Source of the DNA: Kushneria phosphatilytica
GTDB taxonomy: Bacteria > Pseudomonadota > Gammaproteobacteria > Pseudomonadales > Halomonadaceae
DNA: 64,000 nt
Assembly: GCF_008247605.1 (NCBI RefSeq)
Contig: NZ_CP043420.1
Location: 186,001 to 250,000, forward strand
Direction: 5' to 3'
The position numbers and the translations under genes are program-made. The notes below the pieces were generated by a model, which was given only the letters and a program-made list of their open reading frames with translations, was not told the DNA's origin and did not search any database. Shown here piece by piece: positions 33,949 through 44,369 of the stretch (position 1 is its first letter; each line of letters begins with the position of its first letter).

Positions 33949-35694
33949 ATGCTGGGATTGAAACGAAGCGTCAGGGCCAGGTTGGCGGCGACCCTGGGGT
34001 TCTGTGCATTGCTATTGGCCGCCGTAGGCGGATTGGGCGTTCATGCCCTGAATGAAGCGGATAGCGAAGTCGAGCACATCTACGAAGGCAATGTTGAACC
34101 AATGCAGGCGCTGGCGGATGTGCGAAGCCATCTGCTGGCATTACAGTCCCAACTGCTACGTGCCACGCTCGAACGCAGCCCAACCGCCACGACCGAAGCC
34201 GGACAGCAGCTCGATGCCTTCCTTGAGACCTTCGAGCAGGACTGGCCGCGCTACCTGCATGGTCAGCCGACCGGTCAGGAGCGGGTGCTGGCGGATCGTG
34301 TCATCGAGGAGCGCCAGACACTGGAAGGCAGCCTGGAGCGCTATCGTGAACTGCTGAACGAGGGACGTTTTGATCAGGCGCTGACACTGGGCAATGAACG
34401 TCTACAGCCCGGTTTTACCACCCTGAGCGCCGACCTGACCGAATTGATGAATGCGCAGGCGGCCAAGACCCTGAGTGCCTATCAGGCCGGTCAGGCGGCG
34501 CATGATGCACAGCGCTGGGTGATTCTGTCACTGCTGGGGGTTGCCCTGCTGGCACTGGGTCTGGCGGGCTGGCGGCTGACGCGAGGTATTATCCGTCCGT
34601 TGAATCGAGCCTGTGATTTCTCGGCCGAGATTGCCCGCGGCCATCTGGATGCCCGGATCGAGCACCGTTATCAGGATGAGTTCGGGCGCATGCTCAACGC
34701 CCTGGCCGGCATGCGCGATCGGCTGGTGGAGATCGTTAGTCAGGCACGGCGCAATGCTGAAACCGTCAGCGCTACTTCTGCCCAGCTGGCCAGCAGCAGC
34801 GATGAACTCTCCCAGCGTACTCAGGAGCAGGCCGCCAGCCTCGAAGAGACCGCCGCCTCCATGGAAGAGATGACCGCTACCGTGCGCCAGAACGCCGACA
34901 ATGCCGAGCAGGCCGATCAGTTGGCCAGTGGCGTGCGCGCTCAGGCGGTCGCCGGCGGGGAAGTGGCCGGTCGGGCAGTCTCGGCCATGGAAGACATTCA
35001 TCGCTCCAGCCAGCAGATTGCCGAGTTCATTACCATGATCGACGGCATCGCCTTCCAGACCAACCTGCTGGCACTCAACGCGGCAGTCGAAGCGGCCCGC
35101 GCTGGCGAGCAGGGGCGTGGATTTGCGGTAGTGGCGGGGGAGGTGCGCAACCTCGCCAGTCGCAGCGCCGAGGCCGCGCGCGAGGTCAAATCGCTGGTCG
35201 AAACCAGTGTGCACTCCGTGGAAAACGGCAGCCAGCTGGTGCGACAGTCCGGCGAAGCGCTGGCCGAGATCGTTACCAGCGTACGGCGCACCACCGATAT
35301 CGTCTCTGAAATGGCGCTCGCCAATCGCGAACAGTCCACCGGGATCGATCAGGTCAACCTGGCGGTCAGCCAGATGGATGAGATCACCCAGCGTAATGCC
35401 ACCATGGTCGAGCAGGCGGCAGAGGCCAGTCGGCTCTTGCAGGAGCAGGCCGAAGCGCTGCTCGAACGCATGGCCTTCTTCCGCCTGGAGCATGCCGGCA
35501 GCGAACTGACCCCGGCGACCGCCATGGGCCGCACGAAGCGGCTGGCCGCTGTGAAGGCCGCCAATAACGAACACTCACCCCGAATTCGCAGCACTCACCC
35601 GGCCAAGGGTACGTCATCACAGCAGCACCTCCATCGGCCACAGGCATCGAGCTCTCGCACATCCACCACCGAGGATGAGTGGGAAAGCTTCTGA
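33949..35694 (+). CDS. methyl-accepting chemotaxis protein 3
   Basis: A 581-residue receptor, third of the tandem set. Helix 1 spans about 9-31 and helix 2 about 185-206; the periplasmic bundle is again the most variable part. The signalling tip reads [20 protein letters not shown], and the tail is DEWESF. Here the segment before the tip is [12 protein letters not shown] instead of [21 protein letters not shown] precedes the ATG. A 10-bp hairpin without T-run (35720-35743) follows the stop, directly before the CRISPR-like repeats. Confidence 0.92.
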
Positions 35695-35719
35695 CACCTG
35701 TAACAGGCCTCAAAAGCGA

Positions 35720-35743
35720 GGAGCGCTCGACCTCGAGCGCTCC
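35720..35743 (+). terminator. perfect hairpin after chemoreceptor 3
   Basis: GGAGCGCTCG / CGAGCGCTCC, a 10-bp perfect stem with a 4-base loop. No T-run follows. It touches the degenerate end of the CRISPR mini-array. Confidence 0.5.
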
Positions 35744-35889
35744 CTGAAGCTGCCTGCTCGGCAGTAAAGCCGCGCCCAACCCCACGCGTTTCGGCCCTTC
35801 GTTGCTGAGCTGCCTGCACGGCAGCGAACCGGGCGATGGCGGCGGAGCGGCGGGTTTCGGCTTTCTGAGCTGCCTGCACGGCAGCGAAC
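35742..35889 (-). CRISPR. orphan type I-F CRISPR mini-array: 3 repeats, 2 spacers
   Basis: Three 28-base repeats lie exactly 60 bases apart at 35862-35889, 35802-35829 and 35742-35769, separated by two different 32-base spacers (35830-35861 and 35770-35801). Read on the minus strand, the first repeat begins GTTCGCTGCCGTGCAGGCAG and ends CTCAGAAA. It differs from the known type I-F repeat of E. coli and P. aeruginosa (GTTCACTGCCGTGTAGGCAG, then CTAAGAAA) at three positions. The second repeat differs from the first at one base. The third, distal one is degenerate (CTTTACTGCCGAGCAGGCAG, ending CTTCAGGG), as trailer-end repeats often are. Repeat and spacer sizes are exactly those of subtype I-F. 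No cas gene lies in the window and no AT-rich leader is visible on the expected side. Both spacers contain GCCGAAAC. Confidence 0.85.
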
Positions 35890-35907
35890 TCCATGCAGGC
35901 AGTTAGT

Positions 35908-35929
35908 GAAGCGGCCATCGGGCCGCTTC
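35908..35929 (-). terminator. hairpin at the 3' end of the small gene
   Basis: GAAGCGGCC / GGCCGCTTC, a 9-bp perfect stem with a 4-base loop, overlapping the stop codon of the gene ending at 35928. No T-run follows on the minus strand. Confidence 0.5.
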
Positions 35930-36146
35930 AGTCATCGTCCTCGGGTTCGAGGGTGAACTGGCTATAACGTACCGCGGCCTGGAGCCTTTCAAGACGGTTG
36001 ACGCCGGGCTCTTCGATAAAGGCGCTGGCGGCTTCCAGTAACCGGCGATGGGCAATGCGCTCGGCACGAGAGCGTGTGAAGGCGGCCAGCAGGGTGGCCA
36101 GCCTGCCATGATGATGAGGCTGGGCTGATCTGAAAGAAGGTAGCAT
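35928..36146 (-). CDS. small hypothetical protein, 72 residues
   Basis: A 72-residue basic, helical protein: LATLLAAFTRSRAERIAHRR near the middle, then VNRLERLQAAVRYSQFTLEP and an acidic EDDD tail. GGGAGAGGATC lies before the ATG at 36146. No family is recognised, and no membrane segment or signal peptide is seen. It follows the autotransporter gene in the same direction after 65 bases that hold a hairpin (AGCCGGG / CCCGGCT, 36167-36189). A real gene is likely because of its ribosome site, composition and clean fit between flanking elements. Confidence 0.55.
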   Translation of the reverse strand: MLPSFRSAQPHHHGRLATLLAAFTRSRAERIAHRRLLEAASAFIEEPGVNRLERLQAAVRYSQFTLEPEDDD

Positions 36147-36211
36147 GATCGATCCTCTCCCGATGAAGCCGGGCCGCTCGGACCCGGCTGTGATGATGGG
36201 GGGCGGTGTGC

Positions 36212-37315
36212 TTACCAGAGCTTGATGTTCATGCCCGCGCCGTAGGCGTTGTTGCCGCGTGAATCGTGCGACCAGTTGGCATTGACGAACAGACGATCGT
36301 TGAGCGGCGCACCGAGGGCGAGAGAGGCAGCGTTTTCTCCCTTGTAGGAGCCTCCGGCAATGCTCAGCTGACCGCCTGCATCGGCGCCCAGGTAGAACTG
36401 ATGCGAAGCGGCTGCGATGGCTGCGGCCACGCCAGCCTCAAGGTCGTCCACGTCGCCACGAATGTCGGCAATATCCGCCCGGTTCTGCTGGATGTCTGCG
36501 GTATTGCGATTGATCGCTTCCGAGTGCTGCGCAAGGCTGGCACTGGTCTGGCGCTGATAGTCGCGAAGCTCGACCGCATTGCGATTGATGACGTTAGCGT
36601 GCTGGTTCAGTGCTTCGTCCTGACGATCATTGGTGCTGGCATTGGCCTGGATGGCGCTATCCTGCTGTTCGTTGAGCTGTGCATTGGCCAGAATGCCCTG
36701 CCGGTTGGTTTCGATGTTTTTGGTATTGGTCTGACCGGTTGCCGTATTGCGGTCGGCCTGCGCCGAGACGCTATCAATGCGTTGCCCGTTGCGGCTGATA
36801 TCACTGTCCTGGCGCACATTGGTCTGCGTGTTGGCGGTAATGTCGCTGTCCTGGCGTACATTGGTCTGCGTGTTGGCAGCAATATTTCCGCTGTTGGTAT
36901 CGGTACGCTGGCCGAGGTCGCTCATGGCGTCGTCTTGGGCCTGGTCGTGCGCCTTGATGCCGCCGATCTGGGCGAATGTGTTGTCGATGGCGCTGTCCTG
37001 GCGCTGGTTGTGCGCGTCCATGTCATCAAGGCGGCCGCGGTTCTGACGAATAACGCCTTCCTGGCGATCATTCCAGGCAGCCTGCTCATCGATTCTGCGC
37101 TGATTGCCTTCGCCCAGTCCGGTATTGCGATCAGCGTGTGCCGAGACCTCGCTGATGGCGTTGCGGTTGTCTTCGATCTGTTGACTATTGTTGGCAATAT
37201 CCTGCTGCATGTCCTCGACGATGCAGCCGCAATTGTCATAAGGGCTGGCATAAGCCGAAGTGAATGACGTCATCAGAGCAGCGGATACGGCAGAGGCGAT
37301 CAGCGTCTTTTTCAT
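36212..37315 (-). CDS. small trimeric autotransporter adhesin (YadA-type anchor)
   Basis: A 367-residue protein: signal peptide MKKTLIASAVSAALMTSFTS, a stalk of heptad and 14-residue repeats (about 30-280), and a C-terminal YadA-type membrane anchor of about 75 residues (from QFYLGADAGGQ to GAGMNIKLW). The stalk is full of N-rich units such as ANTQTNVRQDSDI, typical of trimeric coiled-coil stalks. There is no globular head, and at 367 residues it is much shorter than most family members. Three chains should form one barrel in the outer membrane and display the stalk. A Cys pair (NCGCI) near residue 30, just after the signal peptide, is unusual. Ligand unknown. Confidence 0.8.
   Translation of the reverse strand: MKKTLIASAVSAALMTSFTSAYASPYDNCGCIVEDMQQDIANNSQQIEDNRNAISEVSAHADRNTGLGEGNQRRIDEQAAWNDRQEGVIRQNRGRLDDMDAHNQRQDSAIDNTFAQIGGIKAHDQAQDDAMSDLGQRTDTNSGNIAANTQTNVRQDSDITANTQTNVRQDSDISRNGQRIDSVSAQADRNTATGQTNTKNIETNRQGILANAQLNEQQDSAIQANASTNDRQDEALNQHANVINRNAVELRDYQRQTSASLAQHSEAINRNTADIQQNRADIADIRGDVDDLEAGVAAAIAAASHQFYLGADAGGQLSIAGGSYKGENAASLALGAPLNDRLFVNANWSHDSRGNNAYGAGMNIKLW
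36798..36881. repeat. 42-base tandem repeat, two copies, inside the autotransporter stalk
   Basis: Two near-identical 42-base units (36798-36839, 36840-36881) encode the 14-residue unit ANTQTNVRQDSDI plus S or T. The third base differences are few, so the duplication is recent and the stalk length could vary by slippage. Confidence 0.8.
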
Positions 37316-42602: not shown

Positions 42603-44369
42603 TCAGCTCGGCTGCAGAGCGTAGTGCTCGGGCTGGACAAGCCCTTCCAGACGGCCCAGCTGAGGAAAATCCACTCGGCTCAGAACATCGTTCATGGTCA
42701 TCCGGTTGCGAGCGATATTCAGTACCACTCTGATCCGCTCGGGCTGACCCTGCTGGTCCAGCTCCATCACCCAGGCGAGAAAGCCCCGCGAGAATCTGAT
42801 CAGGCTACCGATGGGGTAGAAGCCGTGCCGTTGGATGTAGCGGGTGACCCACCACTTGTCGAAGCGGTCGGGACGATTATAGAGGAAGCGGTAGGCTTCT
42901 ATGGCGGTATAGGACTGGCGGTCGCCGCGGGGGCGCCGCATGGCATCGAGGGCATCGATCACGCTGGCCATGCGGGTGACCGGGGTCAGTGCTTCAGCGG
43001 TCAGACCATGCGGATAGCCGCTGCCATCGAGGCGTTCATTGATGCAGCCGACAATCTCGTGACACAGGGTGGCATCGAGCCACGCCACCGGGGCGAGGGC
43101 CTCGATCATGATATCGACATGGCGACGCAGATAGTGCTTCTGCTCTTCTGTCAGCTGGCCTTCCAGACTGGTCAGCTCCTCGCTGATCAACATCGCCTTG
43201 CCCATGTCGTGCAGCAGGGCGGCCATCACCGCTTCCCGGACCCGGTCGGCATGCTCGGTTTCCGCCAGCATCAGATCGGCGAGATGGCCGGCAACGGTCA
43301 GCGAGTGCTGAATCCATTGCGGCTCTTCATCCATGCAGCAGAGGGCGTACAGGAACACCGGGCGATTCTTCTTCAGCAGTCTCAGCAGGGTGGTGGCGCC
43401 ATTGTGCAGGGTGTTGGCCGGGATCGGTTGCTGGTTCAGCAGTGCCAGATGGGCGATGTGCAGCTGGCGTGCCACCTCGCGGATGGCCGTCACCATGGGC
43501 TGGCGGTCGCCTCGGCCACTCTGGCGACGCTGGTAGCCACTGCGTTGATACCCTGGCTCATCGGCTATAAACAAGGGCGAGGGCCAGGCCATGCGGCCGC
43601 CTTCGCCGGTTCGATAGGTCCCTTCGCGTTCCACTTCGTTGATGAAGTAGATCAGGCGATTTTCATCCCCGGAAGCCAGCTCGCGAAAGGCGACCCCCAC
43701 GGCCGCAAAGTGCGAACGTCCGGCCGGGCGAACATGGCGGACCTGGCCGGCAATTTTCAGCTGGGCGCCATTCGGGAAAGTGATGGCAATTTCCGGCAGC
43801 CATATATCGCGGCGAAACGGCGCACTGTGACTCAGTGGTACTTCCAGCTGACAGCCGCTGGCGGAGAGATCACGAATCCCCGCTTCAATGGCAGGTTGAT
43901 CGGTAAATATCCTGACTCGGACGCTGGCCTGCATGCCTCGAATGAAGGGCATGCGCACATTGCGTCGTTTGGAGCTGGTAGACATTCGACCGGGAAAATG
44001 ACACCGCAGCTCCAGAGTGTCAGCGTTGCGGTGGGCGGCGAGCACTTCGAAGGCGTCGAATTGCAGCGCCTCGGAGGCGGTTTCGGCGCGCAGGATCAGA
44101 TCGGTCAGATTCAGCTCACTGGCATCGAGCGCCTGGGCATCTGTCAGCGCAAGTGTCAGCGTATTGTGCTCCGGCTCGATCTGGCTGATCGAGGCGGGAA
44201 AGGCGATTGCCGCCGCAGACAGGGTGATCGACAGCACATGCGTCTCATCGCTCAGCGACTCGACCACCGTGGCGATATGATGGGTATCGCTGATTTCTAT
44301 CTGCTGGCGAGGCTGACTTTCGCGCGTCTCCATGACATCGTCCGTGGCTTGCGGGGCAGGGGGCGACAA
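42603..44369 (-). CDS. PilZ-type plus HD-GYP domain protein (cyclic di-GMP related)
   Basis: A 588-residue soluble protein. The N-terminal 110 residues resemble YcgR-type flagellar-brake domains; a PilZ-like part follows, with KRRNVRMPFIRGM near 133 and DLSASGCQLEV near 167. The HD-GYP domain covers about 340-530, with LLHDMGKAML near 391 and RLDGSGYPHGL near 445. In active HD-GYP enzymes the Tyr-Pro loop is preceded by HHE; here it is INE, so two metal-ligand His are missing. The protein may be a cyclic di-GMP-binding effector, or a weak phosphodiesterase. Single gene; no flagellar or pilus genes adjoin it. Confidence 0.8.
   Translation of the reverse strand: MSPPAPQATDDVMETRESQPRQQIEISDTHHIATVVESLSDETHVLSITLSAAAIAFPASISQIEPEHNTLTLALTDAQALDASELNLTDLILRAETASEALQFDAFEVLAAHRNADTLELRCHFPGRMSTSSKRRNVRMPFIRGMQASVRVRIFTDQPAIEAGIRDLSASGCQLEVPLSHSAPFRRDIWLPEIAITFPNGAQLKIAGQVRHVRPAGRSHFAAVGVAFRELASGDENRLIYFINEVEREGTYRTGEGGRMAWPSPLFIADEPGYQRSGYQRRQSGRGDRQPMVTAIREVARQLHIAHLALLNQQPIPANTLHNGATTLLRLLKKNRPVFLYALCCMDEEPQWIQHSLTVAGHLADLMLAETEHADRVREAVMAALLHDMGKAMLISEELTSLEGQLTEEQKHYLRRHVDIMIEALAPVAWLDATLCHEIVGCINERLDGSGYPHGLTAEALTPVTRMASVIDALDAMRRPRGDRQSYTAIEAYRFLYNRPDRFDKWWVTRYIQRHGFYPIGSLIRFSRGFLAWVMELDQQGQPERIRVVLNIARNRMTMNDVLSRVDFPQLGRLEGLVQPEHYALQPS

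Follow-up and report, generated by a model that had tools for sequence, protein, structure and literature searches.

The window, i.e. the complete 64,000-nucleotide stretch analysed here of DNA from the salt-loving bacterium Kushneria phosphatilytica (Halomonadaceae), contains three 28-nt repeat copies which start at 35742, 35802 and 35862 at an exact 60-nt spacing and which, read on the minus strand, give the order repeat 1, spacer 1, repeat 2, spacer 2 and a degenerate terminal repeat (35742-35889; Table 1). Repeats 1 and 2 are identical at 27/28 positions, one base being different, and the terminal copy at 35742-35769 retains 64% identity to the reference copy. Terminal repeats of arrays are usually degenerate. 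The Rfam family CRISPR-DR4 matches 35862-35889 on the minus strand with an E value of 1.2e-5 and 39.8 bits (gathering score 35). In the whole genome (G000), which consists of one contig of 3,624,619 bases, this family finds two repeats, both belonging to the array and the second remaining under the cut-off with 32.2 bits. Hence, the three I-F repeats, the 60-base period and the 32-base spacers described in the initial annotation are confirmed by repeat scan and Rfam, and the CRISPR-DR4 scan answers its question about other I-F arrays in the genome, as none was found beyond 35742-35889. The sequence it had noticed in both 32-nt spacers is likewise present, GCCGAAAC occupying positions 1-8 of spacer 1 and, at a different offset, positions 7-14 of spacer 2; no common source of this 8-mer was found for the two spacers (35770-35861). 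With its CRISPR-DR4 repeats, 28-nt repeats and 32-nt spacers at a 60-nt period, and a mobile-element match of spacer 1 flanked by a CC PAM, the locus has the features of a genuine type I-F array and, as an object, is fairly ordinary: the relic of a type I-F locus.

Table 1 Array components and neighbouring genes in the window
Feature	Position	Strand	Basis or remark
Methyl-accepting chemotaxis protein, left neighbour of the array	33949..35694	+	gene annotation
Repeat 3, degenerate terminal repeat of array 1	35742..35769	-	repeat comparison
Spacer 2, without credible target	35770..35801	-	phage, plasmid and viral-contig searches
Repeat 2, one base off repeat 1	35802..35829	-	repeat comparison
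Spacer 1, probably newest; matches resident P2-like prophage	35830..35861	-	28/32, CC PAM
Repeat 1, taken as leader-proximal repeat of array 1	35862..35889	-	Rfam and repeat comparison
Half-repeat in opposite orientation, probable stump of array 2 terminal repeat	35891..35910	+	aligned with array-2 end of K. sinocarnis
Small gene of 72 aa without Pfam match, flank of array-2 stump	35928..36146	-	71 aa in K. sinocarnis
Gene with YadA-like membrane anchor domain, beside the array	36212-37315		domain match
HD/PilZ-domain gene; orthologues near Kushneria I-F arrays	42603..44369	-	domain and neighbourhood comparison

Among the neighbouring genes, the YadA-like anchor gene (36212-37315) has a relative at the equivalent place in K. 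sinocarnis. In all seven array-bearing Kushneria genomes (7/7), at most about 13 kb, measured edge to edge, separates the arrays from the HD/PilZ-domain gene, and given this proximity array placement is not random. In the clade of the window, the array is found on the opposite side of this gene compared with the arrays of other species, so that the locus may have been rearranged or may be an independent one. Among the tested neighbours of the array, none was recognised as a mobile gene.

The search for cas genes in the G000 genome comprised Csy4 and Cas1 and gave no match to either protein in the 3.62-Mb contig; the combination of Csy4 (Cas6f) and Cas1 that would mark a functional type I-F system is thus lacking. 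For the leader, a motif composed of GACCCTTTTTTG and AGCTCTTTAAAAA, with at most one mismatch each, was drawn from the Csy4-bearing sister loci. All four Csy4-bearing Kushneria loci have it close to one or more of their arrays, and neither part (GACCCTTTTTTG, AGCTCTTTAAAAA) is present in the window or in K. sinocarnis, leaving the first repeat of the window array without a leader as defined by this motif. In the 11-kb stretch of G005, the first part GACCCTTTTTTG occurs once, nearly 5 kb off the array. No promoter-like site was found within 35500-36400. The statement in the initial annotation that cas genes are missing therefore holds for Csy4 and Cas1, and its statement on the missing leader holds for the window.

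The flanking half-repeat and the sister loci

Directly behind the array, separated from repeat 1 by a single T at 35890, lies the half-repeat at 35891-35910, whose first part (35891-35902) is a 12-nt inverted match to the repeat at 92%. A half-repeat of opposite orientation had been suspected here from the letters alone and considered unexpected in an ordinary array; its presence stands, while the oddity finds an explanation in the alignment with K. sinocarnis (G008). There, a second array closes with a terminal repeat, the adjoining flank can be aligned to the window starting at about 35891, and the half-repeat of the window falls where K. sinocarnis has this array-2 terminal repeat. Hence, the window appears to retain the end of array 2 next to the start of array 1, and the half-repeat is, as judged from this alignment, probably the second-half remnant of the last repeat of the opposed array 2. 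The boundary of the feature should accordingly be set at 35910 rather than at 35889. Of eight stretches upstream of arrays, five carry the leader motif, and three of these five end in A; such a terminal A would correspond to the T at 35890, which is weak evidence in agreement with repeat 1 being leader-proximal and spacer 1 being the newest. A clean palindromic hybrid repeat gave no match in G000 with up to one mismatch, and the window junction thus consists of a half-repeat stump only and not of a palindromic array fusion of the K. sinocarnis type.

Arrays were found in 7/10 Kushneria genomes and Cas1 matches in 6/10. Four of the ten combine Csy4 with arrays, and three, G000 among them, have arrays without Csy4. 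In G003, G004 (taken as K. konosiri) and G009, Csy4 and Cas1 are located between two arrays pointing apart; in G001, repeats were found on one side of the cas genes only. The three twin-array loci share with the window the repeat family, the 60-nt period and the same HD/PilZ gene nearby, whereas they possess Csy4, Cas1, the leader motif and dozens of repeats, none of which is found in the window with its two spacers. K. sinocarnis (G008, locus L121) resembles the window in lacking Csy4, Cas1 and the leader motif at the same chromosomal place. In contrast to the window, however, parts of both arrays have been kept and are joined by a clean palindromic hybrid, and the spacers differ: a left array, the hybrid repeat TTTCTGAGCTGCC-GCACA-GGCAGCTCAGAAA (L121:3602-3626) and a right array follow one another, each side in its own 60-nt register. 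As nothing in the K. sinocarnis array corresponds to the spacers of the window, the losses look independent. A similar hybrid repeat is present in G005, where the left array is gone. This genome, without Csy4, also carries an I-F-like Cas1 gene (L101:8531-9451; G005:C1 near 1393.5-1394.5 kb) about 103 kb from its orphan array. Two more genomes hold a single decayed repeat (G007 24/28, G002 21/28) adjoining a gene which also neighbours the arrays of G005 and other species and which was taken by eye as a putative symporter; no repeat-like site was found in G006. Close relatives thus display the same kind of CRISPR-Cas loss.

Hybrid repeats beyond the genus

The exact hybrid pattern was found at 19 loci among 84,980 species genomes, 17 of which (L103-L107, L109-L117, L119, L120 and L121) lie in I-F context, L115 and L116 with degenerate neighbour repeats only. 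The hybrid matches at L108 and L118 were dropped, being without I-F context. Hybrids either join opposed arrays or flank inverted blocks, and according to the record titles the genera bearing them are Pseudomonas, Azoarcus, Pseudothauera, Stenotrophomonas, Azotobacter, Pantoea, Frateuria and Kushneria. An inversion-type companion hybrid accompanies the first in 5/17 cases (L103, L104, L109, L113, L120), with Csy4 in three of these five genomes. At L104, L109, L113 and L120, array units switch orientation and both kinds of hybrid occur (Csy4 in 3/4 genomes), and these switches have the look of block inversions at the palindromic stems. The remaining 12/17 hybrids were called fusion-like, L115 being ambiguous and L107 being cut near its left end, and none of these 12 genomes has Csy4. 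As a yardstick, 104 of 275 genomes of the family gave CRISPR-DR4 matches, 92 of them at least two, and Csy4 was found in 82 of these 92. Fisher's test of 0/11 fusions (L115 left out) against 82/92 gives p ~2e-9, a contrast which is indicative only, since the taxa differ and the completeness of the scar genomes is unstated.

Scanning the family with up to one mismatch gave hybrid matches in 8/275 genomes, compared to one genome (G013) for the backward control. After exclusion of G043 and G092, where the matches recur at 60-nt steps in variant-repeat arrays, of G023, where the match lies within an ordinary array, and of G062, G144 and G149, where neighbouring repeats are absent, G005 and G008 were left. 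In 5,426 E. coli genomes, the palindromic hybrid, searched with one loop sequence on both strands, was not covered at 80% or more in any. Two further genomes, G046 and G111, hold I-F-like arrays of the same repeat type without Csy4 (L139:5379-5826, L140:5114-5201); neither hybrid nor opposed array was found in the L139 and L140 stretches read. A partial search of the literature yielded no description of fused opposed I-F arrays, and novelty is thus not proven.

Targets of the spacers

Spacer 1 matches the organism's own chromosome (G000:C1:3134728-3134759) over exactly 32 bases, 28 of which are identical. The mismatches are located at positions 16, 19, 20 and 30, leaving a perfect 15-base seed with CC on the PAM side, and the chance expectation for such a match is about 2e-5 in a simple composition model. 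The matched gene has a role in tail-fibre assembly (Pfam Caudo_TAP; PHROG 188) and lies amid P2-like tail genes, and a site in K. sinocarnis matches at 29/32, also with CC. The best explanation for this match is that spacer 1 recorded a P2-like phage whose relative would be the present resident prophage. Phage DSL-LC05, matched at 27/32, is disfavoured as target by its AAC flank and by the hypothetical protein encoded at this position. Among viral contigs, a stricter spacer 1 pattern found nothing, a single contig of 36,999 bp matched a pattern adapted to the prophage variants, and a protein-based locus search found no relative of the target protein. A spacer resembling spacer 1 at 23/32 in the same register occurs in an array of another genus (G012, L047); it may be an independent capture of the same phage region, but the likeness is suggestive only. 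Comparison of 188 further spacers from seven genomes with the DSL-LC05 stretch and the two prophage stretches gave three matches of 24-26/32, all against the prophage of the window genome and none with a CC flank; the spacers of G004 and G005 match in the tail-sheath gene and that of G012 elsewhere.

For spacer 2, no match to phages was obtained, plasmid matches appeared only at E 0.7 or worse in unrelated genera, and two patterns found nothing among viral contigs. The alignment of both spacers to phages, plasmids and host chromosome, suggested earlier as a check, has thus been informative for spacer 1 with its host prophage (28/32, CC), and for spacer 2 it was negative against phages, plasmids and viral contigs. 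Furthermore, 13 spacers (two from G000, six from G008 and five from G005) were compared with four Kushneria cas regions, giving best values of 19-23/32, which for 12 of them, including both G000 spacers, fall among the scores of 60 shuffles. In G005, the fourth spacer reached 23 against cas, above its shuffles (maximum 21), and had a better prophage match of 25. An anti-cas orphan array of the E. coli type was therefore rejected for the window, both of whose spacers are at shuffled level against the cas regions.

Origin of the array and orphan-array precedents

The array is best read as what is left of a type I-F CRISPR-Cas locus on the chromosome after its loss by deletion, a reading to which we assign a probability of roughly 0.85. 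The ancestral locus would have carried its cas genes between two arrays facing apart, as in three sister species. A deletion would then have taken the cas genes together with the leaders and, of array 2, everything save the second half of its last repeat, so that the start of array 1, with two spacers and a degenerate last repeat, would have come to abut the array-2 stump. This reading accommodates the observed absence of Csy4, Cas1 and the leader motif, the position of the stump and the intact as well as decaying loci of the sister species. That the loss in the window lineage was a deletion, and that such losses may be driven by recombination between the palindromic stems of opposed repeats, is what we infer; stem recombination is clear in two sister species and not demonstrable at the window junction. 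Here, GCTGCC or GGCAGC stem halves of opposed repeats would be joined and the intervening DNA deleted, resulting in a hybrid repeat, and the hybrids in K. sinocarnis and G005 are as expected from such joining. Counted against the relic are the window junction, which is not the clean palindromic hybrid, the G001 arrays on one side of the cas genes only, and the 27/28 identity of repeats 1 and 2, according to which decay is slight. At present, the array most likely has no function and is probably inert; for the earlier idea of a regulator or decoy no positive evidence was obtained, as there is neither a promoter-like site nor an anti-cas spacer. Self-targeting by an I-F system is reported to be toxic and relieved by cas mutation (PMC3630108), and a resident prophage matching the newest spacer hence offers a reason for cas loss. 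That self-targeting favoured the loss is plausible, though unproven, and the prophage may also have entered after cas was already gone.

The initial annotation had placed use in trans by Cas proteins encoded elsewhere beside the relic; the relic is the better branch, and Cas proteins encoded elsewhere are disfavoured by a genome without Csy4 and Cas1. A live orphan array which is transcribed and then used by an incoming I-F Cas set is unlikely on the same account, and neither a promoter-like site at 35500-36400 nor the leader motif is present, although repeats 1 and 2 are only one base apart, spacer 1 keeps its PAM and perfect 15-base seed against the prophage, and E. coli orphan arrays are reported to behave in this way (PMC8616872). 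Given this PAM and seed, trans use would punish the uptake of I-F cas genes, while mismatches 16, 19, 20 and 30 may weaken targeting. With quite a small chance of being right, the array could even act as a trap, in which read-through array transcripts carrying spacer 1 would arm an incoming I-F Cas set against the prophage. In that case, the cell would be damaged and the newcomer lost, and relic memory and prophage together would keep the host CRISPR-free and shield the prophage, an exclusion through self-targeting and not through anti-cas spacers. Very improbable is a stand-alone mini-array brought by a mobile element without a complete locus ever being present here: while the small size and the position across the HD/PilZ gene from where the other species have their arrays would fit, no mobile gene was recognised among the tested neighbours, and K. 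sinocarnis has, at the same place, a larger form with two arrays, whose array-2 end aligns to the half-repeat. Finally, a 60-nt periodic coding or REP-like repeat is almost certainly wrong, since the 107-aa minus-strand frame across 35595-35918, which the 60-nt period preserves and which would be its product, is outweighed by the CRISPR-DR4 match, the prophage match over exactly the 32 spacer bases with its CC flank and the I-F arrays at the same place in K. sinocarnis.

Why CRISPR systems are frequently lost is still an open question. One small genus here displays the loss in graded stages: some loci are intact, some arrays are fused and lack Csy4, one is a stub of two spacers, and elsewhere a lone decayed repeat or no trace is left. 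What is added is an explanation of the odd flank, a newest spacer directed against the resident prophage and, in related as well as unrelated genomes, a hybrid-repeat signature which recurs with this kind of loss. The occurrence of the palindromic hybrid in sister species and in other bacteria suggests that I-F loci, by their very design with twin arrays and palindromic repeats, provide a route for cas deletion, and as the hybrid repeat is short and searchable, rate and timing of I-F loss could be measured across genomes.

In E. coli, orphan I-F arrays are reported whose spacers match cas genes and which counteract the entry of such genes (PMC8616872, PMC4489801). As in the window genome, one small I-F array (in E. 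coli, CRISPR4.1-2) is retained by cas-less strains, at a site where the cas genes of other strains stand between two arrays (PMC4489801). While the CRISPR4.1-2 spacers match I-F cas genes (PMC8616872), those of the window do not, one of them matching a resident prophage instead. A collapse similar to the one proposed here is described for a Legionella I-F array, where recombination between repeats strips spacers and the last repeat stays (PMC7056967). The Legionella collapse, however, takes place within one array, whereas the event inferred for the window would join two opposed arrays and remove the cas genes between them.
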